A stretch of 64,000 bases of DNA from Mytilus galloprovincialis (Eukaryota; Mollusca; Bivalvia; Mytilida; Mytilidae): the NCBI RefSeq assembly GCF_965363235.1, contig NC_134838.1, forward strand, positions 7,507,001 to 7,571,000. Direction: 5' to 3'. Below, one piece after another: positions 5,166-53,600 of this stretch. Each line of letters begins with the position of its first letter. Position 1 is the first letter of the stretch. A model generated the notes under the pieces. The model was given only the letters and a program-made list of their open reading frames with translations. It did not search any database and had not been told where the DNA came from. Position numbers and translations under genes: made by a program.

Positions 5166-6739
5166 TCGTCATCGATACAGAACATCGTAGTCCAAGATAA
5201 CCACGGATATTTTACATATTTTTATTCTTTGATCGCATCTCTCTTTCTGAATTACAACATCACCGAAGGTAAATGGTTAGAGAAGTTGTACTTGCCACTA
5301 ACAACTCGATCCTATGTATTTAGAGACATAGAAGTATCAGCCATCCGTTTTGCAGTGCGTTCTCGTGGTTTTTTATGAAGTAGTTATTGTCCCACCTTTA
5401 GTTTTAGTCTATGGATTGTGACCCCTGTTGTCGTTTCAAGTTTTATTGTAATGGGTGTTTTTTCTACAAGCATGTATGTACTTATTTCATAGCCATGTGA
5501 TTTCTGAATCAACTTTTTCAATAATATGTGTTCTAATGTTATTGTTTTAACCAAGCTTATATTCATCCGTATTGCTGGTCTTGATGGTTTTAAACCGTGT
5601 CCAATTTATACAATTCAAACCATTAACAGTACAGGTTGCTATAAAAATCACCCCTGTGAAGTGAATAACTATGTTGTAAGGCAACCGTATGTTTGGCCAA
5701 CAGAAATGATATATACGTGTTTTAACCTCGACTCACTTGTCGTCTCTCTTATTAGGCCAGTTAACTATTTGTCAAAACACTAACATAAGGAGTAAGAAGA
5801 TATAATTTGATACACAATAATATTTAAAGCAAATTGAAACAACGTGTGTGATATTAATGTGATGTTGCAAAATATTTTGTTTCAGCTTCTACTGAAAGGT
5901 TTGAGTGGTTAATATTAATATGCCAAAACAATTTAATAAATTACAGTTGACAGCTGATACACTGCACCATGCCTTCTCTAATGTGTAGTTAAATGATGAC
6001 TACATGAACACTGTACTGCTCTAAATATATAAATAGGAGTCATGATTAGATTTAATTCCCTTACCCCTTAAACTCCATCTAAAGTATTCAAAAATAATAT
6101 TCAGAGTAGTTGTAACCTCCAAGCAAAATGGTTGTAAAACTATGTATATACTTCTTATATATGTATTTCAATGCTAATAAGGATTTTAAAAGTATGCTTC
6201 AGTGCAACAAAATACTGTGCGTATCACAGTTATGTCATTCGCAACTCGAAACTTTTGTACTTTATTTGGCATGACAGCTTCTTTTTTTTAGATTCACTAA
6301 TGAGTCTGTTGTATACGAAACGAGCTCGTCTGACGTAAAAAATTATACACCTTGTAATTTTGGTGAGTTTTTTGTTTTCTTAACTACATAATTTGTCTTG
6401 ATAGAACAAATAAGAAGCCACAATTTTAATTCATAAGAATATTTGATGCAGATAATATCAAAATAGTCGCATGCTAACAAGCAGATTCCAAACAAAAATT
6501 GTACTCAGTTTATTAGTTTTCACTTAAACGTTTAGAAAGACAACTTAATATGCTAAGAGAAAGTTAATCAATTTCTATTGGCAGTCTGATATAGTCTTTC
6601 GAACATCACAGTACGCATTGATATATTATACGTACATAAACGTAATTTATTCCGGCTATTTAGCCAAATTATGGTAATAACCTTGATCAATCATCTAAAA
6701 CTCATAAATCGAAAATAAACTGACAACTTCGTGGCTAAA
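5166..6739. other. Intergenic DNA without an assignable gene
   Basis: Two open plus-strand stretches (5124-5378 and 5526-5783) encode ordinary-looking sequence. The second has spaced cysteines (GFKPCPIYT, TGCYKNHPCEV, IYTCFNL) and could be a relic exon of an extracellular protein. I recognise no family, and no convincing pair of splice sites joins them. From 5790 to 6690 nothing is seen. Confidence 0.35.
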
Positions 6740-8708: not shown

Positions 8709-11700
8709 TCAAAGTCTGGACGATAACGTTGTCAGTACTGCGTGTGCAAGCTCAGCTACATTACCAGCACATCCCCAGTGTAAGGTTACGCCAGCTCCAC
8801 TATGACCGTAATTGTGTATTACCTGAAAAAAAATCCAAATAATAATATATAATAGGATATAAATAAATTCATCATAGATACCAGGACTAAATTTTATATA
8901 TACGCCAGATGCGCGTTTCGTCTACAAAAGAATCATCAGTGACGCTCGAATCCAAAAAAGTTAAAAAGGCCAAATAAAGTACGAAGTTGAAGATAAGACA
9001 TCACAAACTACATTTTGTTTACTTTTGATTCTGAATTCATATTCAATTAAAAAGAAATAGAAAAAATAAATGGACCTAAATGTGTGCATTTAAAATAATA
9101 ATCTTAATGATTTACACATTAAAACAATAATTATTTTTGTATCATATGAAAATAAATACCATACATCCGGAACTTCTTTTTTCTTCTATTTCTAATCTTA
9201 CTTTGGTTCTTCCGGGTCGGAGTCCAACCCAATCACCAATTTTCTGTGCATTCTATACAATAAAAGAAAATATCTTTGTGATTATAACGAATGAAAGAAT
9301 TTCTTTGATTGCAATCTTTTCGCACAGAAAGTGTAAATGTTTTGGGTATTGATCTATCTAGGAATATGCGAAAGGGATGCGAAATTAAATGAACAATAAA
9401 AAGATCCATTAAAGATATTCATTGTTCAATGTCAACAGATAAGCAGCCAGACTTATATAAGAATGCCAGTAGCCGTTATATCATATCATATCATATCAAA
9501 TTAATAAAATTGAGAATGACAATTGAATCAATTGTTTTATCTACAGTCATCGATTTGTGAGTTTTGAACAGCGGTATATACTACTGTTGCCTTTATTTAT
9601 CTACTGTCATGTGTAAGACGGAGCAAAACAAACTAAGAGAACAGTTTATTATTCATTAGTTGTAAATGGCTTTGAACTATCTTTCAAGACGGGTCCAACA
9701 TGTGGAGGAGGATCTGCTTACCCTCCGGAGAATCTAAGACCACCACCCCCCCCCCCTTTTCCACACTTTTTTGGTGGGGTTTGTGTTGCTCAGTATGTAG
9801 TTGTCTATGGTGTGTTTGTGCTTTCAATGAACTTGAGGAATACAACATCGAGCATCCCAATTCATCACTCGCAACAATAATCCCGAGAGGATGAATGCAT
9901 TTTAAACATGCTTCCAAAGTGAACTTTAAGGACTCCAGCAACGACGCTTGAGCCAAATACTAGTTTTTTGTACAATGCGATTGACGGGCTGATTCTTGCT
10001 ATTGGGGTATACAGATATATTAAGCCAGCTCGACCAATGACAATTATACCACCTAACTAACATACAACACATTATAGGGAAGCGAGGAGGAAAAACAGAT
10101 GGCGACATGCTTTTGTGAATCGACGTTTTGGAACTTCAACCTGTTTTTGCATATTAACGGAGTCCTTTCCCGTGTTGTATTAAAGCATGTACTTGTATCT
10201 TCAACGTCTTCATACGGATCTTATTATAACAAGGAACTATTAAATAATTTGTCATTTGTCCCTTCAACATATATTTAATAAATAATTTAAAACAAACCTT
10301 TAAACTTGGAACAAGATTAAGGCAACTTTCCCAAATTTTGTCCTTATCCTGTTGGTTAATATCTGTACTCCAGTTTCCCTCTTGTCCTGTTCCACCGAGG
10401 ATAACATAATCACGTCTGTAATAATGATATGTTTGGTCTGAGAGCAAATGATACGTTTATTGTTTACAATACATTGTATATTACATTTGGTTAATAAGAA
10501 GAAACTCAACACCAAGCTATCCCAAATACAGATATAAAACTGTGAAAAACACTCAAATGAGAAATGTAAAACTACAAATGTACTTAAGAAACATGCATGT
10601 TTGTCGCATATTAAAAGCACATATTCAGTTTTATATAATGTGTCTTGTATACTATTTTTGGTTTGTTTGTCTTTTTTAGCCATGGCGTTCTTGGTTTATT
10701 TTCGATCTACGAGTTTGATTGTCCCTCTTGTATCTTTCATCCCTCTTTTAATTGGAATTGCAAATGACTAAATATGATAATCTAAAAACCTTGTACATCC
10801 TATCACATTACTAACTCACGAATATAAAATCATTATGCAACCATTAAAATCAGTTGGAAAAGGCTTGGGTATATTCATTTTTACCTAATTTTTTGACATT
10901 GGATGAGCTTGATTTAGGGGTTCATTTCTGTGCATGAAATAATATCTCATGACATATTCAGTAAACGTTTTTGGATTAGAAATAGTTTAATAAAATGTAG
11001 CACTAGTATGATATTGTGTGCACACTTTAACCAATTAGAATGAATAACGCTGTTTCTTTGAAAACTTAAGCAGATGAACCATTTCAATGAATTAGATACG
11101 GTATTGATGAATAACAGGTTTTCATTTTAGTTCATACATAAAATTGCTAAAATGATCTTGAGTTTTCCCTGTTGATAACATAGTCTTCACAAATAATTTC
11201 GGTATTCTATATTTTCAAGTATATTCTCAAAAATTTAATTTCTTACCCCGGCAGTATATATCGTTCGGTACCTTCAGTCCGATCAAAATCTACGTAGAAA
11301 TGTTTAATCCATGGAGCAGATACCTGTAAAAATGTATTGTGGGTTTTAGTACCATATATGTAGCCGTGCATTTGTTCACTAAAATTAATCTAATATGTAG
11401 ATAGTTTCGAGTTGGCATCCAATTTGTACTGTTTTTATCGTCGGTTCTTCTTACAATTTTTCTTATTTCAATATGCTTTGGTTATTTAAAAAAAAAAGAA
11501 AAGAAAAGTACCTAATTGTACGACGGGTTTTTTTACCAGTTTTAATCATAAATTAGCATAGAAGTACTTAGAATTACTAACAAAAATACAAAAGAGGTAA
11601 AAAAGCAATCCTATCCCGATGCTATAACATTTCCCGTCTATACACAAAGAGTTATATTATGTTGTAACGTTTAATATACCCTAATAATCTGTCCACGAAT

Positions 11701-14700
11701 TGGTTTCACGTCCTGGTCATTCAAAAGCTGAAAAGCTCTCACTCCAACACAATTAATAACTAAATCGAATTTATCTGAAATCTAAATGAATATCAAGATA
11801 TTTTCATTAAGTAAATCAGTGAATATTTCAAAAGTCAATAAAAAACCATCTTTATTTCAGTAAAAGATAGCAGTTGTATATTTTTGTATTAAGCGAGTAA
11901 AAAAATACAGGAAATTGCAATACCATTTGTATTATCTAAAATAACATATTAATCTGCTCAAAATAATTATTATTACATTATATAACAATATAATCGCATA
12001 CTCTTTTCATTAAAATTGTTCTAAATATTTGTTTAATAATGTGATTAACATATAGCCTCATATATAGAGTTGCAAACTTGATTATACATATTTTTCCAGG
12101 AAAACAATATTCAGTATAATTCTAAATATACTGACATTTTTGCAGCAAAACACAATGCAAAAATTGTTAGAAATATACAAGGACAGTCCGTGCATTAGTT
12201 CGTTTCATGTAAAATAATATGTATTACCTCATTCACAGAAGAAATTGTGCCAAACTGAACTTTTCCTCCTCTCGACTTAAACCTATCGAAAAAAAATAAT
12301 AATTTATACTTATATGTCTATAAAAGTACATCTAAAATATGAAAGAATAATTATCAGAAATATGTGGAATTCTGCTTCATATAAAACAAAATCTCGTTTT
12401 TATGACAAATTCAAATCAGAAGTCAAATCTGATGATAATTATTAGTATCTGATCTTTTATTACAAAATGGAAAAATGCAACATCTATATAATTCAACAAA
12501 ATCAACATTTCTCCAGTACGTATTTTGTCGGGGGCTTTTTACTTGCCATATAATACGACACTGTTATTCTCATAGGCAGATCCAGGTGGAGGTGTGGCAT
12601 TTGTAGGGGGCGCCCCCTTTTTTGTGGAAAAAACTGTTGGCTTATATAGGGAATCACTGAACCATGACTGGAGGGCCAACCCCCCCCCCCCCCCTTATAA
12701 AAAGTTCTCGATCCGACCCTGGTAATCTATATGCTGATAGAATTTTTTTAAATATACGACTCAATAGTTGGAATCGAACAATATTCCAAATTGTTTTCTT
12801 TATACAAGAGATTAAATTATTTGCCTAGTCCTTGCGACACTTTCCTATGACAAGAACGCACGCCAACATATTCTGCTTTTCCTCAGTTAAGAAAACAGTC
12901 AAGGATATGGAAATATTACGTAAATGAGTTTGACTGTCTTTATATGCCTTATTTGGAAAGAAAAAAACAGTTCGGAGCCTTTTACAGCTGACTTTGCGGT
13001 ATGGGCTTTGTTCATTGTTGAAGGCCGTACGGTGACCTATAGTTGTTAATTTCTGTGTCATTTTGGTCTCTTGTGGAGAGTTGTCTCATTAGCAATCATA
13101 CCACATCTTCTTTTTTTATACTTAACATTGTTTACTACCATACAACTATTTATTACAACATTAAATGTTAACAACTTACTTCTCCATTAACCAGGGGAGA
13201 TATGACTTGACGTCTATTACTAATGAGGTGTAAAATATTCCTCCTCTATAAAATAAAATACATATTTGTTTGTTTTTATAGTTATTGGGATAATAACACA
13301 ACGGTGACTGCTGTGCCCCTACTTTTGACGTCCAATACTATTGAAGTGTAAAATATCCCTCCTCTATAAAATAAAATACATAATTGGTTGGGGTTTTTTT
13401 CACAGTGATTTAGATTATAACACAACGGTGACTGCTGTACCCATATATTTGATATTTGTACCTTTTATATCTGTTTGTTTTGTTCACACTTCGTTGTCAA
13501 TATAATTGAATTTGATACGGCAGTTATACAAGTGAGAGGTTTAGCTAGCGTTAAAACCAGTGTTAATCCACCATTTCTTTAACAGGAAAATGTCTGTACG
13601 AAGTCAAGAATATGACAGTTGTTATCTATTCGTTTGAGTTTTTAATTATGCCAATTGATCAGGGACTTTCTGTTTTGAATTTTCTTCGGAGTCCTGCGTT
13701 TCGGTGTGTTTTAGTCTTAGATAAATTATTTTTTTTAGTTTGTATTAGCTTCGGAATAGCTTTAAGTACCTGAGAGTACTCTAAGAGCTGTATGTTTGTC
13801 TTTATCGTTTGCGTAAGTTGTGTTTGTGCTTTGTATCGATATGATTAGTTTCCAACGAATGCTTCTGTTGTGATGTTACTCATACGTTCTATACAATTTG
13901 ACTTTTCTAGTCTTGTTCTTTCTTAGTATTGTCATTTGTTGGCGCTTTGGACAGAGTTTTGTGACTGCGTAGTATAACTATTATACATCTTAATCAAAGG
14001 ACACTCTTTTATTATCAAACTTTTATGCTATCATTTATTGTTGAGTAAACATCTAGTGCATACTTATTTTTAGGATGAAGTTTTCTTTCTTTCTGTTCTA
14101 ATCGTCTGTAGGCTATTACTTGATCCTTCCAGAATGGGTCCTGTTACAAACATAGTATACAAAAGTCACATACGTTTTTTCAAATCATGAAAAAAAAACT
14201 CCTAAGAAAATTCAAAAAGGAAAGTTTATTACATATATCACGTGGCTATGTAAGTATACATCCCGTCATTGTGCCATTGCAAATGGTAAATATGTGTATT
14301 CTTGTCTTTAATTTTTGCTAATATTCTTGGTCTATATGACATTTTGTGCTTCTTTGTTACATGGTTGTTGCTTTGGTGTTTTTTTTGGGGATGGGTTTGT
14401 TAGTAATTAAGATTATAACACAATGTTTTCTGCTGTATTTTTGACATTTATGTCTGTTTGTTCACACATCGTTGTCAATTTAATGGAATTTGATGCAGCT
14501 GTCATTAAAGTGCGAGGTTTAACTAGCTATAAAACCAGGTTCAATCCATCATTTTCTACATAAGAAAATGCCTGTACCAAGTCAGAAATATGACAGTTGT
14601 TATCCATTCGTTTGATGTGTTTGAGCTTTTGATTTTGCCATTTTATTAGGGACTTTCCGTTTTGAATTTTCCTCGGAGTTCAGTAGTTTTGTGATTTTAC

Positions 14701-14826: not shown

Positions 14827-17800
14827 CAAAGATATATGTGTCTGGAATTTTAGGTGAGGAGCTTATTTGAAAATACCATCAGTAAGGGCAAATTGCAAAT
14901 ACCTTTGACCATAGCATTACATTTAGGTAGAATAATAAGAATGTAGACGTTGATTAAGTAATAGCATTCTGTATCCGAATCAAATTATACCTAGAGTTTC
15001 CAGTGTGTTTACTGTATTAATGTCAGAGCAGTCACATTCAAGATGTATTAGGGAATTGCTATAGCAGGAGTTCAATTCATACACATACTGATCTCTGACG
15101 GCCGAATGTTTGAACCTGTCATATATGTTCAGTTTGTATGAAAGTAAACGAAGATTTTGAAATTATTAGCTTTATAATCTTCTTTATTGACAAAGCTTTT
15201 CTCTTTGTGCAAACGGTTGTGCTTTAAAAAAAACGCACATATTTTTAATTGGCAAAACGAAATAGACTAAAATATGGATAATTGATATAAAATTATAACA
15301 ATGAATTGCATTCCTATGAAATCCATTTTTGTAATATACTTCTGTTTCGGTTGCAAATGCTTTAAAGTAGTTATCAAAATTACCAGGATTATATTTTAGT
15401 ACGCCAGACGCGCGTTTCGTCTACACAAGACTCATCAGTGACGCTCATATCAACTAAAGAACTGATAATCTGTATTACTTAAGCTACGTTACTTTGTATT
15501 TAGGATTTATCAAACCCCTAATTTGTATAACGCTTCGGCAAGAACACATATATTAACAAATGAATATGATTTAAAATGCACGTTCAAATATAAAAAGATA
15601 AGGTGTGGTATTTTTGCCAATGAGACAACTCTTCACAAAGGACCAAATGATACAGAAATTAACAACTATAGGTCACCGTACGGCCTTCAACAAAGACCAT
15701 ACCGCATAGTCAGACATAAAAGGCCCCGAAATTATAAATTTAAAACAATTCAAATGAGAAAACTTTTGGCCTAATTTATATAAAAAAAAAGGAATGTGTT
15801 CCCAGTACGTGGATGCCACATTCGCACTGTAAGTTTCTATGTTCAGTGGACCATGAAATTGGGGTAAAAACTCTAATTTGGCATTAGAATTAGAAAGATC
15901 ATATCATTCAAGACTGATGAACAATATAATATTATCATATTTTAATAAATAACATAAACAATTTAAAAAAAATATTAAATACAGAGTTTATTAAATCGAT
16001 AAATACCTGGTCGTCGTGTTCAATTGAGAAATCATAGCCAGATACAAGCTGGGCACCAAAACAACATAAATACCTGGTCGTCGTGTTCAATTGAGAAATC
16101 ATAGCCAGATACAAGCTGGGCACCAAAACAACATAAATACCTGGTCGTCGTGTTCAATTGAGAAATCATAGCCAGATACAAGCTGGGCACCAAAACAACA
16201 TAAATACCTGGTCGTCGTGTTCAATTGAGAAATCATACCCAGATACAAGCTGGGCACCAAAACAACATAAATACCTGGTCGTCGTGTTCAATTGAGAAAT
16301 CATACCCAGATACAAGCTGGGCACCAAAACAACATAAATACCTGGTCGTCGTGTTCAATTGAGAAATCATAGCCAGATACAAGCTGGGCACCAAAACAAC
16401 ATAAATACCTGGTCGTCGTGTTCAATTGAGAAATCATAGCCAGATACAAGCTGGGCACCAAAACAACATAAATACCTGGTCGTCGTGTTCAATTGAGAAA
16501 TCATAGCCAGATACAAGCTGGGCACCAAAACAACATAAATACCTGGTCGTCGTGTTCAATTGAGAAATCATAGCCAGATACAAGCTGGGCACCAAAACAA
16601 CATAAATACCTGGTCGTCGTGTTCAATTGAGAAATCATAGCCAGATACAAGCTGGGCACCAAAACAACATAAATACCTGGTCGTCGTGTTCAATTGAGAA
16701 ATCATAGCCAGATAAAAGCTGGGCACCAAAACAACATAAATACCTGGTCGTCGTGTTCAATTGAGAAATCATAGCCAGATACAAGCTGGGCACCAAAACA
16801 ACATAAATACCTGGTCGTCGTGTTCAATTGAGAAATCATAGCCAGATACAAGCTGGGCACCAAAACAACATAAATACCTGGTCGTCGTGTTCAATTGAGA
16901 AATCATAGCCAGATACAAGCTGGGCACCAAAACAACATAAATACCTGGTCGTCGTGTTCAATTGAGAAATCATAGCCAGATACAAGCTGGGCACCAAAAC
17001 AACATAAATACCTGGTCGTCGTGTTCAATTGAGAAATCATAGCCAGATACAAGCTGGGCACCAAAACAACATAAATACCTGGTCGTCGTGTTCAATTGAG
17101 AAATCATACCCAGATACAAGCTGGGCACCAAAACAACATAAATACCTGGTCGTCGTGTTCAATTGAGAAATCATAGCCAGATACAAGCTGGGCACCAAAA
17201 CAACATAAATACCTGGTCGTCGTGTTCAATTGAGAAATCATAGCCAGATACAAGCTGGGCACCAAAAAACATAAATACCTGGTCGTCGTGTTCAATTGAG
17301 AAATCATACCCAGATACAAGCTGGGCACCAAAACAACATAAATACCTGGTCGTCGTGTTCAATTGAGAAATCATAGCCAGATACAAGCTGGGCACCAAAA
17401 CAACATAAATACCTGGTCGTCGTGTTCAATTGAGAAATCATAGCCAGATACAAGCTGGGCACCAAAACAACATAAATACCTGGTCGTCGTGTTCAATTGA
17501 GAAATCATAGCCAGATACAAGCTGGGCACCAAAACAACATAAATACCTGGTCGTCGTGTTCAATTGAGAAATCATAGCCAGATACAAGCTGGGCACCAAA
17601 ACAACATAAATACCTGGTCGTCGTGTTCAATTGAGAAATCATAGCCAGATACAAGCTGGGCACCAAAACAACATAAATACCTGGTCGTCGTGTTCAATTG
17701 AGAAATCATAACCAGATACAAGCTGGGCACCAAAACAACATAAATACCTGGTCGTCGTGTTCAATTGAGAAATCATAACCAGATACAAGCTGGGCACCAA

Positions 17801-18661
17801 AACAACATAAATACCTGGTCGTCGTGTTCAATTGAGAAATCATAACCAGATACAAGCTGGGCACCAAAACAACATAAATACCTGGTCGTCGTGTTCAATT
17901 GAGAAATCATACCCAGATACAAGCTGGGCACCAAAACAACATAAATACCTGGTCGTCGTGTTCAATTGAGAAATCATACCCAGATACAAGCTGGGCACCA
18001 AAACAACATAAATACCTGGTCGTCGTGTTCAATTGAGAAATCATAACCAGATACAAGCTGGGCACCAAGTTTTCCTGCTTCTGGTGACTGGACCAAATCT
18101 AGTAAATAGTCAAATGTCGCCTGGTCCCATTTCCTTTAAATTGAAATGCTGCATGTTCATTTTTTAATGATATTTTCTCATAAAAATAATTAATGAAATA
18201 CTCATTTACAAAAGTATGTTTGACGTTTATCTTTCTACACATTTAAACCATTTTTTTTTCAAAACGACTCACTACTGCATGTAATTTTGGGGTATTTTAT
18301 CAAAGTTTGAGTGTCTACCTATTTTTTTCGTTTCATGTTTTAAAATAAATGTTGTCTTCATTATTTGACTATGTACAATGATGTATAATAAACCTTATCT
18401 CTTCACTTTGATCCGGGTTGACTAAATGTGGTTCCCAAAAACCAGCAGACCCATCAGAAGTTGTGTGTGGAGAAAATGTATCAGCTATTATGGTTATATC
18501 GATGCCTGGTATCTTGTCTTGGATTCGAACAGCAGACGATAATCCTATAACCCCCGCTCCAATCACGCAGATCTTTCGACGATTCATATCTAAAACAATA
18601 TCATATTTAATGCTTTCATGTTAAGGTAGGATATGTGAGGTTAGTACAATGTTTGCTTACC
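8709..18661 (-). CDS. DAO: D-amino-acid oxidase family flavoprotein, complete, 10 coding exons
   Basis: Peroxisomal FAD enzyme that oxidatively deaminates D-amino acids to 2-oxo acids, NH3 and H2O2. Coding exons in transcript order: 18587-18394, 18133-18016, 14140-14064, 13245-13180, 12282-12228, 11781-11680, 11323-11247, 10415-10298, 9252-9160, 8822-8709. All introns are GT-AG, phases agree and the sum is 337 aa (human DAO 347). The FAD loop GAGVIG is residues 10-15. [16 protein letters not shown] matches the LGG segment of the family, Arg281 (VGLRPGR) matches the substrate-binding Arg, and [19 protein letters not shown] matches the DAO signature. The C-terminal SRL is a PTS1. The active-site loop before Tyr226 is shorter than in vertebrate DAO and lacks the first of the two tyrosines, so D-aspartate oxidase activity cannot be excluded. 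A 5' UTR exon probably ends at 18661: donor GTGAG|gtaagc, a 71-bp intron with branch point 'tactaac', acceptor 2 nt before the ATG. The exon 2 end is amplified in a 31-copy array. Confidence 0.93.
8868..8990 (+). repeat. Dispersed repeat with 'gcgcgtttcgtctac' core, oxidase intron 9
   Basis: 'taccagga', 'cgccagatgcgcgtttcgtc', 'catcagtgacgctc' occur here and again at 15383-15460 in the same orientation. I recognise this as a very common bivalve interspersed repeat. Only a fragment is present, in the last intron of the oxidase gene. Confidence 0.6.
9690..9840 (+). repeat. Fragment of the RT-element tail, inverted, oxidase intron 8
   Basis: The words 'ggatctgcttaccctccgga', 'ttttttggtggggttt' and 'gtgttgct' are the reverse complement of 6780-6880, the untranslated tail of the RT element at 6740-8485. 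A C-run interrupts the middle. It lies in the intron between coding exons 8 and 9 of the oxidase gene. Confidence 0.6.
12574..12722. mobile_element. Small MITE related to the element at 38980-40449
   Basis: The left end 'ggcagatccagg' and right end 'gatccgaccctgg' are inverted relatives. The interior has G-run and C-run blocks like the larger element in peptidase intron 1. It sits in oxidase intron 4. No coding content. Confidence 0.5.
12850..13115 (-). repeat. Mussel dispersed repeat M1, minus orientation, oxidase intron 4
   Basis: From about 12950 the minus strand matches family M1: 'ggcagtatgg'-type landmarks, 'tgaaggccgtacggtgacct', 'ttaatttctgtgtcattttg' and 'gtggagagttgtctcatt', as seen in reverse at 34840-35025. 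It ends in 'accacatcttc' plus a T-rich stretch about 65 bp from exon 4. Confidence 0.75.
13206..13442 (-). repeat. Two-copy tandem duplication carrying the 5' part of oxidase exon 4
   Basis: Copy 1 (about 13206-13320) contains the real acceptor and first ~40 nt of exon 4 (13245 downward). Copy 2 (about 13321-13442) repeats acceptor 'ctctata' plus the exon start, and still reads in frame as [15 protein letters not shown] against [15 protein letters not shown] in the true exon. Copy 2 has no consensus donor at the matching place, but 'gtaggg' directly follows its AAA codon. Both copies also share downstream intron text 'taacacaacggtgactgctg'. Divergence of roughly 15-20 percent suggests it is not very recent. 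Confidence 0.75.
13420..13700 (+). repeat. Dispersed repeat M2, copy 1, oxidase intron 3
   Basis: The stretch 'gcgttaaaaccagtgttaat', 'ggaaaatgtctgtacgaagt', 'agggactttctgttttgaat' matches 14400-14705 in direct orientation. It is a widespread bivalve repeat by recollection. No reading frame of interest. Confidence 0.65.
14400..14705 (+). repeat. Dispersed repeat M2, copy 2, oxidase intron 3
   Basis: Landmarks are 'gcgaggtttaactagctata', 'gaaaatgcctgtaccaagtc', 'agggactttccgttttgaat'. This is the less diverged of two direct copies in the same intron. A ~27-nt T-run follows at 14800-14826. Confidence 0.65.
15383..15465 (+). repeat. Second fragment of the 'gcgcgtttcgtctac' repeat, oxidase intron 2
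   Basis: 'accaggattatattttagta', 'cgccagacgcgcgtttcgtc' and 'catcagtgacgctc' match 8868-8990 in the same direction. Only the core is present. Confidence 0.6.
15593..15793 (+). repeat. Mussel dispersed repeat M1, plus orientation, oxidase intron 2
   Basis: It begins at 'aaaaagataaggtgtggtat', runs through 'ccaatgagacaactcttcac', 'tataggtcaccgtacggcct' and 'aaaggccccgaaatt', and ends in an A-run. It is truncated relative to the 19.1 kb copy. Confidence 0.75.
15797..15910 (-). repeat. Fragment of the 'gccccacc' repeat, inverted, oxidase intron 2
   Basis: This is the reverse complement of 46740-46850: 'ttcagtggaccatgaaattg', 'gggtaaaaactctaatttgg' and 'aaagatcatatcat' correspond to the end of the element nested in peptidase intron 4. 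Fragment only. Confidence 0.6.
16001..18068 (-). repeat. 67-bp minisatellite (31 units) made from the oxidase exon 2 / intron 2 junction
   Basis: Thirty-one head-to-tail units of 67 bp lie here; one unit near 17270 is 1 bp shorter. On the minus strand each unit carries codons [14 protein letters not shown], then the donor CAG|gtattt, then 'atgttgttttggtgcccag'. The unit at 18010-18068 is the authentic end of exon 2, continuous with upstream exon sequence; the other 30 lie in intron 2. Units are nearly identical. The main variable base is the third position of the Gly codon (GGC, GGG or GGT, all synonymous); one unit changes Val to Leu. Every unit thus holds a usable-looking 5' splice site, and the run before 'gtgcccag' resembles a 3' splice site, so a 42-nt in-frame cassette is conceivable. 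Confidence 0.95.
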
Positions 18662-30099: not shown

Positions 30100-30860
30100 T
30101 AGCTATGGAACGCCGACACTGTCTTATTATGACATTTCTCATTATATGATGTTCATTTGCCTTTATATGATGTTATTTTACCCTTATATGATGTGCAAAT
30201 GACATTATATGATGTGCAAATGACATTATATGATGTGCACTTGTCCTTATATGATGCACACTTGTCATTATGTGATGTGAACTTGTCCTTATATGATGTA
30301 CACTTGTCATTATATGATGTGAAGTTGTCCTTATATGCTGTCCAAACACATTTATATGAGGTACAAACATCTTTATATCATGTCCACAATTCATTATACA
30401 ATGTGCTTTCTCCATTATGTCATGTGATTGCGTTCTTATATTATGTGATGCTTTCCTTATACGATGTAGAAACGGCATTATGTGATGTGCAATCACCTTT
30501 ATATGATGACAATTTGACATTATCTGATGTGCAAATTATTTTATATGATGTGCAAATTATCTTATATGATGTGCAAATGGTCTTATATCATGCACAGATG
30601 TCTTTATATTATGTGCAAACTTCCTTATATGATGTGAACGTATCCTTATGTTATGTGCTAACATCGTTATATGATGTGGTAATGTAACATCATAGGGTGT
30701 GGTTCGGTTTACATCTTTATAGGGTGTCAGAACAGCATTATGATGATGTACATTCATCGTCCTGATGGTCAATGAACATGATTACGATTAAAGCGATTAC
30801 TCACTACGTCAGAACTGATTCCGATCTGCTTCTGCAGAATTAATATAAACCCGGATCAAA
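30100..30860 (+). repeat. Left copy of an inverted pair carrying a 21-bp minisatellite
   Basis: The core (about 30150-30690) holds ~25 diverged units of 21 bp, of the type 'ttatatgatgtgcaaatgac'. Flanks are 'tggaacgccgacactgtctt' on the left and 'gaacatgattacgatta', 'gattccgatctgcttctgc', 'taaacccgg' on the right. The whole block returns inverted at 35965-36680. A period of 21 keeps several frames open for >160 codons (heptad LYDVQxS). This is a length effect and no protein family is recognised. Confidence 0.85.
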
Positions 30861-35964: not shown

Positions 35965-36680
35965 TGAGCCGGGTTTATAGTTTACAGAAGCAGATCGGAA
36001 TCAGTTATGACGTAGACAGTAATCATTCTAATCGTAATCATGTTCATTGACCATAAGGACGATAAAAGCACATCATATAATGACGTTTCGACATCATATA
36101 ATGAAGTAAACCAAACCACATAATATAAGATTACAAGCACATAATATAATGACACAACCACATCATATAAAGATATTTGCACATAATATAATGGTAACTG
36201 CACATCATATAATGATATGTACACATCATATAAGTATATTTGCACATGACGTAAGTATATTTGCACATCATATAAGGATCGTTGTACATAATATAAGTAC
36301 GTTTGCACATCATATAAGAATGTTTGCACATCATATAAGTACATTCGCACATCATATAAGTACATATGCACATCATATAAGTATATTTGCACATCATATA
36401 AGTATATAAGCACATCATATAAGTATAAATGCACATCATATAAGTATACATGCACATCATATAATGATGTTTGCACATCATATAATGATGTCTGCACATC
36501 ATATAATGATGTTTGCACATCAAATAATGATGTTTGTACATCATATAAGGATGTTTGCACATCATGTAAGGATATTTGCACTTCATATTATGACAATTGC
36601 ACATCATATAAAGGTAAATGCACATCATATAAAGAAAATGGTCATAACAAGACAGTGTTGGCGTTCCATATTTAGCCTTA
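35965..36680 (-). repeat. Right copy of the inverted pair with the 21-bp minisatellite
   Basis: This is the reverse-complement partner of 30100-30860. It runs from 'gggtttatagtttacagaag' + 'cagatcggaatcag' through ~27 units of 'acatcatataagtatatttg' type (about 36066-36640) to 'aagacagtgttggcgttcca' + 'tattta'. Flanks and array both match, so the unit moved or was copied as a whole. Array units here are more regular than in the left copy. Confidence 0.85.
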
Positions 36681-44600: not shown

Positions 44601-47600
44601 TAAGAGTACTAGTTCTATATATAAATGTACAAAAATTTTACCTTTTGGATGGATAAATCCATCCAATTGCAGCTAACAGATAACTGAGGCAAGCAAATCT
44701 TCAGTACTTTTTATTGATATATGAAAAGCAAACTTCTTATGGTTTTTTTCAATTTGAGAATTTAGTATTTGATAGACTGTTAAATATATTGACAACTTCA
44801 AAGTCTTATTTTACACTCCAGAATATTCAAAGCTTGACATATATATATCAACGAGACACCTGTTTAATGTTTTTATACGACCGCAAAATTTGAAAAATTT
44901 TTCGTCGTATATTGCTATCACGTTGGCGTCGGCGTCGGCGTCGTCGTCGTCGTCGTCGTCGTCGTCCAGTGTCCGAATACTTTTAGTTTTCGCACTCTAA
45001 CTTTAGTAAAAGTGAATGGAAATCTATGAAATTTTAACACAAGGTTTATGACCACAAAAGGAAGGTTGGTATTGATTTTGGGAGTTTTGGTCCCAACATT
45101 TTAGGAATTAGGGGCCAAAAAGGGCCCAAATAAGCATTTTCTTGGTTTTCGCACTATAACTTTAGTTTAAGTTAATAGAAATCTATGAAATTTTGACACA
45201 AGGTTTATGACCACAAAAGAACGGTTGGGATTGATTTTGGGAGTTTAGGTTTCAACAGTTTAGGAATTAGGGGCCAAAAAAGGGCCCAAATAAGCATTAT
45301 TCTTGGTTTTCGCACAATAACTTTAGTTTAAGTCAATAGAAATCAATGAAATTTAAACACAATGTTAATGACTACAAAAGGAAGGTTGGTATTGATTTTG
45401 GGAGTTTAGGTCCCAACAGTTTAGGAATTAGGGGCCAAAAAGGGACCCAAATAAGCATTTTTCTTGGTTTTCGCACCATAACGTTAGTATAAGTAAATAG
45501 AAATCTATGAAATTTAAACACAAGGTTTATGACCATAAAAGGAAGGTTGGTATTGATTTTGGGAGTTTTGGTCCCAACAGAATAAGGGGCCCAAAGGGTC
45601 CAAAATTAAACTTTGTTTGATTTCATCAAAATTGAATAATTGGGGTTCTTTGATATGCCGAATCTAACTGTCATGACTGTGTATGTAGATTCTTAACTTT
45701 TGGTCCCGTTTTCAAATTGGTCTACATTAAGGTCCAAAGGGTCCAAAATTAAACTTAGTTTGATTTTGACAAAAAATGAATCAGTTAGGTTCTTTGATAT
45801 GCTGAATCTAAAAATGTACTTAGATTCTTGATTATTGGCCCAGTTTTCAAGTTGGTCCAAATCGGGGTCCAAAATTAAACTTTGTTTGATTTCATCAAAA
45901 ATTGAATAAATGGGGTTCTTTGATATACCAAATCTAACTGTGTATGTAGATTCTTCATTTTTGGTCCTGTTTTCAAATTGGTCTACACTAAAGTCCAAAG
46001 GGTCCAAAATTAAACTTAGTCTGATTTCAACAAAAATTGAAATCTTGGGGTTCTTTGATATGCTGAATCCAAAAATGTACTTAGATTTTTTATTATGGGC
46101 CCAGTTTTCAAGTTGGTCCAAATCAGGATCTAAAATTATTATATTAAGTATTGTGCAATAGCAAGTCTTTTCAATTGCACAGTATTGCACAATGGCAAGA
46201 AATATCTAATTGCACAATATTGTGCAATAGCAAGATTTTTTTTTAATTGGAGTTATCTTTCTTTGTCCAGAATCAACTTAAATCTTTGTTATATACAATA
46301 TACAATGTATATTCACTTTTTACTACCAACTGATAAATTATAATAAATAACATTCAGTGATAACAAGCAGTTTTTTTTACATCTTAATATTTTATGATGT
46401 ATTTAAATGAGTAGTTATTGTTGCAAACTCCATTAGAAATTTTAATTGAGATTAGTTTTGGAATAAGGGAAAGGGGGATGTGATTAAAAAAATTGGGTTC
46501 AATTTTTCTCATTTGAAATTTCATAAATAAAAAAGAAAATTTCTTCAAACATTTTTATGCCCCACCTACGATAGTAGAGGGGCATTATGTTTTCTGGTCT
46601 GTGCGTCCGTCCGTCCGTCTGTCCGTTCGTTCGTCCGTCCGTCTGTCCCGCTACAGGTTAAAGTTTTTGGTCAAGGTAGTTTTTGATGAAGTTTAAGTCC
46701 AATCGACTTCAAACTTAGTACACATGTCCCCTATGATATGATCTTTCTAATTTTAATGCCAAATTAGAGTTTTTACCCCAATTTCACGGTCCACTGAACA
46801 TGGAAAATGATAGTGCGAGTGGGGCATTCGTGTACTGAGGACACATTCTTGTTTTGAGAGGATTAATATTCAACAGCATAGTGAATTGCTCTAAGAGAAA
46901 ACAAAAATTTTAAGTTCATTAGAACACATTCATTCTGTGTCAGAAACCTATGCTGTGTCAACTATTTAATCACAATCCAAATTTAGAGCTGAATCCAGCT
47001 TGAATGTTGTGTCCATACTTGCCCCAACCGTTCAGGGTTCAACCTCTGCGGTCGTATAAAGCTACGCCCTGCGGAGCATCTGGTTTTGTGTTGCAAAGTT
47101 ATGTTGCTGTCTCACTGATGTATACCAATACGTTGCATATTCTATTGTACACTTAGTATATATTGTTTAAACTGTTTATTAATGATTTGCCAGATATATT
47201 ATCTAACAATTTTGATGATGTCAATTTAAATGATGAAAAGATACCATGTCTACTTTATGCTGATGATCTTGTATTAATATCTGACTCAAAAGAAGGGCTT
47301 CAGAAGAGACTTGATACTTTGTGCACATTCTGCAAAGATTGGTGTATGGAAATAAATGTGAAGAAAACCAAGATTATAATATTCAATAGGAGTGGTAGAC
47401 TCCTTAATGAAAATTTCAATGTAGGAAATAATTCTATTGAATGTGTTAAACAATACAAATATCTTGGCATAGTCATCCAAAATACTGGAAACTTTAATGA
47501 AGCCAGGAAACAATTATTCCAAAAAGGTCAAAAGGCCAGTTTTAAACTTTATAAAGATTTGAAATCATCTAATCCTCCTATTAAAACTCTTTTGCATTTA

Positions 47601-50600
47601 TTTGATCACTGTATACAGCCAATTGTAACTTATGGTTGTGAAAATTGGGGTGTTATTAACATTACTTCTAAAAGGAAAAATTTGTCCCTTTATGACATAT
47701 TTAAAGATTGGGAGTTTGAGAAGCTAAATTTAAAATTTTGTAAGTATATTATTGGTGTTACAAAGATGTGCACAAATGTAGCAGTCCTGTCTGAATTGGG
47801 TAGATATCCTCTTTATATAAATTTGCTAACACATATGTTTATGTATTGGCATAGACTAGAGAATTCTCCATCTAATTTATTGAAAAATGCTTATGCTGAG
47901 TTAAAAATGATAGAAAGTAAAGGTCAAACTAGTTCCAATAATTCATGGCTCTCTAATATCATTTTCTACAGTGAAAAATTGGGTATTGACCTAAATATAT
48001 GTAAAAATCTAGGAAAAAATAAATTTAAAAACTTATTGAAAAAACAGCTCAAATTAAATTTTCAAAATGATTGGGAGAAAATGCGAGATTTTTATTTACA
48101 GAATCAAGGCAAATTGGACACTTATTTTTCATTCAAAAGGTCATTTGACTATGAAAATTATTTAGATTTAAAGCACCCACAAAAACATTTGTTATCAAAA
48201 TACAGACTTAGCAATCACTGTTTTAAGAATAGAAACTGGCAGACATGAACGAATTACCAATGTATGTGGTAAATATGAAATATTACCTCGACATGAGAGG
48301 ATATGTTTATATTGTAATACAAATTGTATTGAAAATGAAATGCACTTTCTTCTGGAATGCCCAATTTACAATAACCTCAGAAGAGATATCACTGATTATA
48401 TAAAAAAATACCCCAGTTTAGATAGTTTATATATAAATGATCTTTTTTCATGGATCATGATTAATGAAGATAGCAGATTTTTATCTATTTTATGTGCATA
48501 CCTGGATAAAGGCCTGCAACTAAGAAAATCAGAAAATTAGTTAAATACTCTAAAATATATCAAAATTATCTCCCCTTGACCACTGATCCTTTCTTCATGC
48601 ATTTGAATTTCAATTATTATTTTATGTTTCTTTAATCACTCTGTAATGTTTATGTCATGTTGTAATTAATGTTATGCTCTTAATGGGCCCTTTAATTTGG
48701 AAAATAAAAATATTGTATTGTATTGTATTGTATTGTATTGTATATATGTATATAGCATCATGCAATATGTATTACATATATATTTATTTCTTCTGATAGA
48801 CATGACATGTGGAGGATTCCCTGGTCCAGGAATAAAAGAACATAGAATCATGATGAACCCAATGAGAGAATATATAAACAATGACCAAACACATATTGAC
48901 CAAATGTTTGGCTTCTATAAAAATCAGCACAGTAAACAATACCCCTCAGTAGAAGAGCATGAGCAGAGAAAACATATATTTAGACATAATGTTAGGTCAG
49001 TATTGAATTTTTCTGAGTTTTTTTCTTATTATGGTACAAAACAATGAAATAAGCCTTGCACTTTGAATTTTAGCATGGTGGTATAAATTTTGTTGAAGGC
49101 CGTACGGTGACCTATAAAAGCCACAAGAAGATTAGAAATGTGATTATTAATCTTAGGACACAAAAAAGTGGTTAAAAATTTATTAATATTTCACTTGTAT
49201 AGAGCCAATGATGAAACCTGTCAATGCAAGATCAAATTAGACAGCTTACTTGTTAATACAGGATAAATAAGACAGGTTACCTGTGTGTGCAGGAAAAATT
49301 GGACAGAATACATTTAAATGCACATTTCAGTTTAGACAGGTTACCTGTTAAAGTAGGATTCGCAAAATTCTATCAAACTGTTATATTATTAAGTCCAACA
49401 TATAACTATAACAACTTTTCATTGTGGTACAAATGCCTAGAATATGCAGTGGTTATTACTTTTTGATTGTAGATATATTCACTCTAAGAACAGAGCTGGT
49501 TTAACATACAGACTGGCTGTCAATCACCTGGCAGATAAATCATCAGAAGAACTAAAACTAATGAGAGGATTTAGATATACACCTGGTAACCATGGTGGTC
49601 TGCCATTTGAAAGATCTAAATATAACTTAAAAGATGTTCCAGCTAATCTGGATTGGAGATTATATGGTAAGATATTTTATAGTTTCATACTTCTGATTAA
49701 AGTTGATTTTTTTTAAATAAAAGAAATATATTAGATTTTGAACTTATGAAAAATAATATTTTAGGTGCTGTTAATCCTGTCAAAGACCAGGCAGTGTGTG
49801 GATCATGTTGGAGTTTTGGAACCACAGGAACAATAGAAGGAGCTTATTTCCTTAAGGTAAGGGACAATAAAGGGAGCTTATTTCCTTAGATAAGGGACTT
49901 TCCGATTTGAATTTTCCTTGGTGTTTGTGTTATTTTATTTTTTTCGGTACATTCTAATTTGGTCAAATTGATCCTGAAAAGTGTAAACTAGTACTTCATG
50001 TACTTTTAGTTGCCTCTCAATGTATGAGCTATATAATGGTATATATTCAATCACTTGCAAAGTTGATGGTGTAAAAAGTTTATTTCTAGGTAAATTTGTA
50101 CTTGACAAAGTAACTCTTATAAAGTTTAATTTTACAAAGAGCCTCTTATAAAATTTAATTTTACAAAGAACCTCTTATAAAATTTGATTTTACAAAGTAC
50201 CTCTAAGGCTCTTACAAAGTTTGAATTGACAAAGTACCACTTATAAAGTTTGATTTGTCATCATGATTCACTAGTAGTATATATAACTTTATAAGCTTAG
50301 TGTAGTTCATAAATAAAGTATCTCTGACTGTTTGTGATAAGATCATAACTGAATCATATAAATGGAGTGTTTAAGATAAGAGCTTTACCGGTGACACATA
50401 CAGTATAATCTTGTAACTATCAAATTGAAAGTTGCAAACCTTTTAAATACAAGAATGATAGTCTTTTTAAAAATGTTCCTGTCTTAATTTTTTTTTTGTC
50501 GTAATTGTTTTTGATTTTGAATCTGTGGAGAAAGAAAATGACTTTGTCGTTGATTTGGGTGCACTATTCATGATATAAATTATAGTGAGTTGTTGAGTGT

Positions 50601-53600
50601 AAATTCAGAAATTTATAATTGCCATTTGTTGACCAATCAATGGGCCAAAAGTTAAGATTGATTGTTGTGATTTTTAAGAAATGTTGCATTATTTACAAAT
50701 GTAGAATGTTATCAAAATTATTATATTTTATTTTTTTGCCAAAACTGCAATTTTTACAACAATAAAACATCACAAAAAAGGATAAATTTAGAAAATGTTA
50801 TGTCAAGTGAACATGCATATGGTGAAGTTTTTTGTATATTTTTTTCATTTTACAGACAGGAAATTTGGTGAGGTTATCCCAGCAAGAATTGATGGATTGT
50901 TCCTGGGGAGAAGGTAACAATGCCTGTGATGGAGGAGAAGATTTCAGAGCCTACCAGTATATCATGAAAAATGGGGGTCTCACAACAGAGGAACAATATG
51001 GTGGATATTTAGGCCAGGTATGACATAAAGCACAGCAAGTAGACAATGAAAAATTTCATATACACATAATGTATATATAAGAAAGCACACAGAAATGTTT
51101 TTGACACATACTTGAAAAGAGAGCTATAAGCAAGTGCTTGAAATAAAATATGTGTAAAGAAACATTTTACTTAAATGTTATAATTTACAAGTATATAGAT
51201 ATGCTGCTATTGGTGATCAATACATATTGCCTGGCTCACGGTATGGATGGTGCTTTGATAATCTGCTTTTAAAACTATTTTCTTAAAATGCTTTATTTAT
51301 TATGTACTTTAAAATTAACCTGATGAGGAAGAGAGGTCAGCTAGTATGCATATTCTAAAAATAGAATCAATCTAATATGAGGCAGGCATTACCTGTGAAT
51401 GGGGACGAAGTCTATGATTTTTGTCGAGCCTGCAACTTTTGTTGCAGAAAGCTCGACATAGGGATAGTGATCCGGCGGCGGCGGCTACGGCGGCGGCGGT
51501 GTTAGCTAACTTCTTAAAGGCTTTATATTTTAGAAGGTGGAAGACCTCGATGCTTCATACTTTGTATATAGATGCCTCATGTTACGAAGTTTCCGTCAGT
51601 CACATGTCCAATGTCCTTGACCTCATTTTCATGGTTCAGTGACCACTTGAAAAAAAAGTTCAGATTTTTTGTAATGTTGAATTCTCTCTTATTATAAGTA
51701 ATAGGATAACTATATTTGATATGTGCGTACCTTGAAAGGTCCTCATGTCTGTCAGACAGTTTTCACTTGACCTCGACCTCATTTCATGGATCAGTGAACA
51801 AGGTTAAGTTTTGGTGGTCAAGTCCATATCTCAGATACTACAAGCAATAGGGCTAGTATATTCGTTGTATGGAAGGACTGTAAGGTGTACATGTCCAACT
51901 GGCAGGTGTCATCTGACCTTGACCTCATTTTCATGGTTCAGTGGTTATAGTTAAATTTTTGTGTTTTGGTCTGTTTTTCTCATACTATATGCAATAGGTC
52001 TACTATATTTGTTGTATGGAATGATTGTAAGGTGTACCTATCAAGCGGGCAGATGTCATGTGACCTTGACCTCATTTTCATGGTTTAGTGGTCGAAGTTA
52101 AGTTTTTGAGTTTTGGTCTTTTTATCTAATACTATATGCCATAGGTCATCTATATTTGGTGTATGGAAATATTTTATGATCTTTATGTCAGTCGCGCAGG
52201 TTTTATTTGACCGTGACCTCATTTTCACGGTTCATTGCACAGTGTTAAGTTTTTGTGTTTTGGTCTATTTTTCTTAAACTATAAGTAATAGGTCAACTAT
52301 ATATTTTGTATAGAAGCATTGTTAGCTGTACATGTCTGCCTGGCATGGTTCATCTGACCTTGACCTCATTTTCAAGGTTCATTGGTCTTTGTTTAGTTAT
52401 CTTGGACTTGGTTAATGTTAAGTTTATGTGACAGTTGTATTAAAGCTTAGGGCTATTCCAGAAAAAAATGTATGGGGGGGTTGGAAGGCACATTATATTA
52501 ATAATACATGGGTGATGGGAATCAGAGCAACTTTTCACACTATAATGCACTATAATACGTATATATATACTGAATTACAATTGTCTGGGTGGCGGGTGCT
52601 GACAAGAACTGCCTTCCAACTCCCCCATACATTTTTTTCTGGAATAGCCCTTAGCTTTATACTTAGGACTATCAACATAATATCAATGATTAGTATAGAA
52701 GGCGAGACATTTCAGGGTGTGCACTCTTGTTTTTTTAAATCAACAATGTTAAAAGAGAAACGGAAATACCGTAACGTTTCCGATTTTGGTTCTGTTGTTA
52801 GGGATTTTAGTTATTTAAGTTATGATGTCATATTCAATGTAAACAAAGAAACGCTGTCATCAGGTAACGTTTTTTTGATAACAAACATATTTTTTTTTAA
52901 ATGAATTAGTATTAGTTCCTTTCTTAGACTGATAAATATACATTTTATTCAAAGTCTCATATAAACAAGACCGGAAACGGAAGTAGATTTCTGCGCAGAT
53001 CCGGAAATTCAAAACCTTGACAAAAAAAAATTGAACAATTTTGAGTTCATTAGTACAATGAAAAATTTGGGAAATTTTCCCGATTTTTTTTTTTTTTTTT
53101 TTTTATTGAATTTTCTACTGTAATCGGGGTTTTCGTCTCCATAAAAAGAATAGCTATGAGAATTCAGATTTGTTAAGAGCATTTATATTGTTTCTTGAAT
53201 CTTATCCAAATAAGAGAAATTTTACTAATTAGTAAGTAGTGGTACTTATTTCTATTATTTTTAGTAATATCAGGATCACTCTTTGGCATGCCATCATAAA
53301 TGGGTTTTTGAGACAAAACAAGCTTTAATTTGCAGATGGAGTTACACTATACACTATTTGGCTATATCTCATAATACCTGACATCTTGTTTTTATATAAG
53401 AGCATGGATATCAGCAAAAATGTTGGCAATCTTCACTTTTATGTCTGTTTCTAATGTTTTTTTTGCAAATGTTCTTTATATGCTGTATTTATCTATTGTA
53501 ACATACTTTTATGAAACATACTAATAACTATAATTAAGAAATAATTCTTTCATGCCATGCTCTATGCTCATTTTAACATGGGTAGGCATTATATTTGTTA

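Follow-up and report, generated by a model that had tools for sequence, protein, structure and literature searches.

The window analysed here is a stretch of 64,000 nucleotides of Mytilus galloprovincialis DNA (assembly GCF_965363235.1, contig NC_134838.1, positions 7,507,001 to 7,571,000), which encodes a gene of the D-amino-acid/D-aspartate oxidase (DAO) family. At the junction of exon 2 and intron 2 of this gene lies a minisatellite of 31 units of 67 bp, each carrying a copy of the exon end and its splice donor. The array is real and striking; it appears young and is most likely a near-neutral repeat rather than a device for producing protein variants.

Minisatellites are head-to-tail arrays of units of about 10-100 bp, and both Tandem Repeats Finder (TRF) and a direct parse of the units place the oxidase array within this definition. 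Applied to the 64-kb window, TRF describes it as a single array at 15999-18068 with a period of 67, 30.9 copies and 99% matches. The direct parse yields 31 head-to-tail units on the minus strand, with 29 of the 30 intervals equal to 67 and one to 66 (29 units have the full 67 bp, one has 66 bp and the last is cut to 61 bp). The sequence GGTGCCCAG is present in 31/31 units, and the donor GACCAG|GTATTT and the AG are likewise kept in all 31. A 33-base core, sought with up to 3 mismatches, has 31 matches in the window and none in any of 100 shuffled sequences. Every unit is composed of 53 nt from the exon 2 end, 8 nt from the beginning of intron 2 (gtatttat) and a 6-nt filler (gttgtt), which sits between copies and is missing after the last one; 11 nt of exon sequence, TTGGTGCCCAG, occupy in the copies the place where an acceptor would be. 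The array starts at position 18068, inside exon 2, and its first unit is the true exon end with the donor CAG|gtattt at 18016. An earlier note on this DNA had described an exon-intron junction of an oxidase gene amplified into a 31-unit, 67-bp minisatellite, which TRF, the unit parse and the shuffles bear out. Its count of 31 is correct for the units, but not for the adjoining intron, where it had placed them all: only 30 copies are intronic, the remaining one being the exonic original. The copied piece of exon, given in the note as 42 nt (14 codons), is 53 nt in the parse (18068-18016).

15999..18068, minus strand: minisatellite of 31 units (TRF, unit parse, genome search)
18016..18068, minus strand: unit 0, the original, consisting of the last 53 nt of exon 2, with the donor CAG|gtattt at 18016/18015 (unit parse, gene model)
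15999..18015, minus strand: the 30 copies inside intron 2, each with an extra donor and an AG, together filling about half of the 3,875 nt of that intron

The host gene is complete on the minus strand, with ten exons from 18587 to 8709 separated by GT-AG introns. The joined exons form an open frame of 1,014 nt including the stop, encoding 337 amino acids with the C-terminus SRL, which we take to be a type 1 peroxisome signal. The protein is 45% identical to human DAO (sequence typed in) over 335 aligned positions, matches PF01266 (E 2.7e-41, residues 5-325) and, among PDB structures, matches D-amino-acid oxidases with E down to 3.7e-86 and the D-aspartate oxidase 6rkf with E 2.2e-72. The host is accordingly annotated as an intact DAO family gene with a full-length domain dependent on flavin adenine dinucleotide and an open frame, and the previous assignment to a DAO-type oxidase, together with that of the exon 2 donor, is upheld by the domain match, the structural matches and the 337-residue frame.

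18394..18587, minus strand: DAO exon 1, from ATG
18016..18133, minus strand: DAO exon 2, 118 nt, ending in CAG|gtattt
14064..14140, minus strand: DAO exon 3
13180..13245, minus strand: DAO exon 4
12228..12282, minus strand: DAO exon 5
11680..11781, minus strand: DAO exon 6
11247..11323, minus strand: DAO exon 7
10298..10415, minus strand: DAO exon 8
9160..9252, minus strand: DAO exon 9
8709..8822, minus strand: DAO exon 10 with the stop

Variation among the units is slight and ordered. The consensus is matched exactly by 19 of the 31 units; base 21 of the unit is C in 21 units, G in 6 and T in 4. Apart from this site there are one 1-bp deletion, one G>T that replaces Val by Leu in the frame of the cassette described below, and the truncation of the last unit. 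Units with like variants lie in clusters along the array (10 runs versus 16.1 expected, P 0.003 in 20,000 shuffles), which is a mark of local duplication or conversion, as local duplication predicts. The main variable position had been noted as synonymous. It is indeed a variable site; however, synonymous variation is here no sign of coding constraint, because the array holds only three types of substitution, two of which share base 21 while the third alters an amino acid. The G state at base 21 also creates an extra GT (TGG|GTATGA) in 6 units, absent from the earlier note, which scores 4.49 as a donor with a generic matrix and 8.31 with a local one, 6/679 background GTs being as good under the latter. 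Two units differ on average by 0.57 per 59 bp (about 1%), or by 0.06 when base 21 is omitted. This is below the heterozygosity of 1.73% given for M. galloprovincialis in the passages available from PMC7653742, so that array length is predicted to differ among individuals. As 2.07 kb of near-identical repeats taken from an assembled sequence, the array might owe its copy number to misassembly, which is very improbable given the ordered variants, the 66-bp unit, the different flanks and the position on a 133-Mb contig.

The unit is found at this locus only. In a search of the whole assembly (1,384,861,812 bases in 331 contigs, very common words skipped), 31/31 matches lie inside the array; in viral contigs there are 0 exact matches, in a search outside which records near the window's genome may fall. 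DAO has at least four paralogues, one in tandem on the same contig, with its exon 1 at a distance of about 30 kb, and, more distantly related, one on C6 and two on C2; the search scored the best candidates only, so more may exist. In all four, inspection by eye shows a block resembling exon 2 with a GT at the corresponding position behind it. The TRF output contains no array for any of the four within the stretch searched after that block, which extends to the exon 4 match for the C6 copy and the first C2 copy and to an arbitrary end for the second C2 copy. Exon 3 was located in the tandem paralogue only, which has a minisatellite of its own (30 bp x 18) between its exon 3 and exon 4 matches (5611-6157 of stretch L019). 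The array thus appears to belong to this DAO gene alone, and since the unit occurs only here and the four paralogues lack an array in the stretches searched, its origin most likely postdates the separation of the gene copies.

These observations are probably best explained by a young minisatellite that originated in a tandem duplication across the donor, spread locally and is close to neutral. A single tandem duplication would have joined the start of intron 2 (gtatttat and about 6 filler bases) back to exon 2, 53 nt before its end, and slippage or unequal exchange would then have enlarged the array to 31 units, passing a few variants to neighbouring units. Because the growth lies to the intronic side of the original donor at 18016, this donor would still close exon 2, and the 30 copies would be removed together with intron 2; the array may be tolerated because the copies fall in an intron. 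Minor use of the extra donors would give transcripts with an early stop. Two histories fit the missing filler after the last copy: a first duplication with a few filler bases at its joint, or sequence lost afterwards from the distal edge. As a source of the filler, an 11/12 match about 40 bp downstream (TTTATGTTATTT) was considered and rejected, since its shuffle P of 0.012 belongs to a 12-mer picked post hoc and other choices gave 0.09, 0.22 and 0.74. With the gene intact and the unit confined to one locus, the option that the array is simply neutral and, as a prediction, highly polymorphic, already raised in the earlier note, stands as the best reading. Several points weigh against it. The array donors are identical to that of exon 2, which thus holds no advantage in strength; donor choice, read from genomic sequence alone, and array length, taken from one assembly, are unproven; and selection could likewise account for the preservation of all 31 donors, although an array this young does not allow a distinction.

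The consequences of splicing within the array were computed from the reading frame and from splice-site scores. Extending exon 2 to any of the extra donors leads to a stop at codon 118 (30/30 donors), as does retention of intron 2. Sites were scored with a generic matrix and with the local matrix, whose acceptor set consists of 14 acceptors of two genes and is small and AT-rich (left-out scores -1.01 to 13.66); both matrices are rough. The array donor is strong, only 2/349 intronic GTs being as good under the generic matrix and 13/679 under the local one, and its computed U1 pairing of -7.6 kcal/mol is the second strongest among the nine donors of the gene. The folding of RNA from a three-unit stretch is no better than that of shuffles (z -0.41).

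The strength of the extra donors, their identity with the real one and the uniform stop at codon 118 speak for a competition in splicing, as do the downstream donors of human IFI6 described below. The option of a decoy for U1, raised in the earlier note, may also apply. The 30 additional sites would take a share of U1 and of splicing events, and productive DAO mRNA would fall with array length through an extended exon 2, the early stop and decay, so that length polymorphism would tune oxidase output. Exon definition, as a matter of general knowledge, should nevertheless favour the 118-nt exon, and units with so few substitutions give no measure of constraint; competition of this kind is considered unlikely. 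It is quite unlikely that a variable ladder of identical 5' splice sites sets the fraction of productive splicing and that array length is a heritable dial on oxidase level; if this were true, each added 67-bp unit would be one more competing donor leading to an early stop, in a highly polymorphic animal.

A paper cited in PMC4526556 describes, by its title, a minisatellite of the human gene IFI6 that provides multiple splice donors. In the passages available from PMC4526556 itself, two downstream repeat units of IFI6 serve as donors, yielding three mRNAs. Similarly, the oxidase array spans the 3' end of an exon and has a donor in each unit (31/31 GACCAG|GTATTT), exon 2 ending in unit 0. The likeness is drawn from that title and these passages; the gene is unrelated, and the oxidase array has 67-bp units, 31 copies and an in-phase AG in each, with extra donors that are predicted and whose use would give an early stop. 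The IFI6 minisatellite is a direct precedent, and the oxidase array most likely belongs to a known kind of element. Tandem repeats, on average of 30-bp units x 4, also lie at exon-intron boundaries of human genes within segmental duplications and can change splicing there, according to the part of PMC2812944 at hand; in contrast to those cases, which were checked for transcripts, the oxidase array has more and longer units and is known from DNA.

The array AG and the next donor delimit a 42-nt cassette in phase 0, and the frame stays open with 1, 2 or 15 such cassettes, so that a tandem cassette has both a preserved frame and a donor. Adjacent cassettes are 25 nt apart, and skipping one unit gives an intron of 92 nt, close to the 98-nt intron of a neighbouring gene model. 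The 25-nt gap, the phase-0 cassette and the predicted joining of 18016 to 14140 mentioned in the earlier note hold as sequence and frame. If the donor of unit k were joined to the AG of unit k+2, 14-residue repeats would be added to the oxidase, and a branch-like TTTAT lies 18 nt before the AG. Under the generic matrix the cassette acceptor scores 6.42, inside the range of the nine acceptors of the gene (5.1 to 10.73), with only 14/298 intronic AGs as good. Under the local matrix it scores -6.86, below 14/14 real acceptors, and 411/573 intronic AGs are as good. The acceptor is doubtful, not dead, because the local matrix was built from few, AT-rich sites and the generic one, too, is rough. Further, repeats of these 14 residues would depart from human DAO, which has the stretch once, and from the paralogues, in each of which it has a single match. 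The frame therefore allows the protein-length variants suggested in the earlier note, but with an acceptor scored so differently by the two matrices such variants seem unlikely, and the joining of alternate units in particular is highly unlikely.

The sequence CCAG|GTATTT ends every unit, which raises the question of dual-specific sites, each unit end acting as both acceptor and donor and the array being removed silently and stepwise, by one or more 67-nt lengths at a time. In the human polyubiquitin gene UBC such tandem dual-specific sites are spliced; there the units are coding, frame-preserving and 228 nt long, and weak acceptors can be used at such sites (passages of PMC10809524). The oxidase array resembles UBC in having AG|GT at every unit boundary and differs in its 67-nt, mostly intronic and frame-breaking units (stop at codon 118, 30/30). 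As an acceptor, the AG|GT that closes each unit does poorly under both matrices, scoring -1.95 and -10.21, with 500/573 background AGs as good at -10.21. Compared with UBC-type sites, the array thus has the AG|GT; on the rough matrices it lacks a credible acceptor, and retention of units does not keep the frame. We give stepwise removal very little probability.

In potato RdRp, an intron was gained by tandem duplication across an intron-exon boundary, a single event at an acceptor with proof from RNA-seq (PMC4974935, in the portion available). As in the oxidase gene, tandem duplication across a splice junction copied ready-made splice signals; unlike the potato duplication, the oxidase array was amplified at a donor and is known from DNA, and a duplication at DAO exon 4 is nearer to the potato case. 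In the titles and abstract openings of literature on splice-donor and intronic minisatellites, intron gain by tandem duplication, minisatellites and splice sites in mussels and bivalve D-amino-acid/D-aspartate oxidases, no description of the oxidase array was found; passages of PMC4039745 and PMC11304980 left the interpretation unaltered.

Other duplications in the window also span splice junctions, one in DAO and two in a cathepsin-like cysteine protease gene.

13207..13442, minus strand: 118-bp duplication, 2 copies, about 82%, of the intron 3/exon 4 acceptor junction with about 40 nt of exon 4 (TRF, blastn)
54207-54306, plus strand: 47-bp duplication (2.1 copies, 98%) over the end of cathepsin-like exon E and the donor GTG|GTAAGT (TRF)
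49826-49898, plus strand: 34-bp duplication (2.2 copies) over the donor of cathepsin-like exon C, the second copy having, by eye, AT instead of GT (TRF)

The 24-mer at the DAO exon 4 junction recurs with 1 mismatch in 24 at an offset of 118, and the upstream copy keeps, by eye, the T-rich tract, the AG and 11/13 residues of the exon start. In the exon E duplication the second copy keeps its donor, the use of which would shift the frame. The possibility that splice junctions are targets of duplication was considered and rejected: the four junction-spanning duplications in two genes are not significant against the window background. Junction 24-mers with a copy at up to 2 mismatches within 300 bp number 3/28, versus 3.7% of 12,218 positions sampled outside the array (binomial P 0.08) or 6.7% of 12,627 with the array included (P 0.29), and P is 0.16 to 0.53 at 3, 4 or 5 mismatches; the test is ungapped and misses the exon C duplication, which has an indel. 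Six 10-kb stretches with parts of DAO paralogues (two overlapping by 3 kb; 23 exon blocks, one listed twice) showed no array of period 20 or more spanning an exon block, and one C6 array stops some 13 bp short of a block, the true exon start of which is not fixed. Tandem repeats are dense in the window (44 TRF rows), so that junctions would be struck along with the rest, and duplications that fall to the intronic side of a donor can presumably be tolerated.

Additional features were observed in the window. Intron 2 of DAO contains a type I hammerhead ribozyme motif (15401-15444, minus strand; 32.6 bits, E 5.1e-5), just below the Rfam gathering score of 34; at gathering thresholds Rfam gives 0 matches in the window. 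Near 8,940 there is, by eye, a hammerhead-related sequence without the full core. The intron 2 motif fits the about 5,000 type I hammerhead copies described for M. galloprovincialis in the passages available from PMC7229834. Six exons of the cathepsin-like gene (48800-55188, plus strand) join without an internal stop; a reverse-transcriptase fragment of a retroelement lies at 47163-48245 on the plus strand (RVT_1, E 6.7e-12); and two arrays of units of about 21 bp resembling ATGATGTG, at 30133-30687 and 35982-36672, are free of stops over 100-200 codons in several frames of either strand.

The oxidase gene of M. galloprovincialis offers a natural test set of 31 identical donors, one at an exon and 30 in an intron. 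Should splicing make use of the extra donors, productive splicing would be set by the length of the array, as by a dial; if they are ignored, the array would be a natural test indicating that position relative to the upstream acceptor, and not donor strength, decides the choice of donor.

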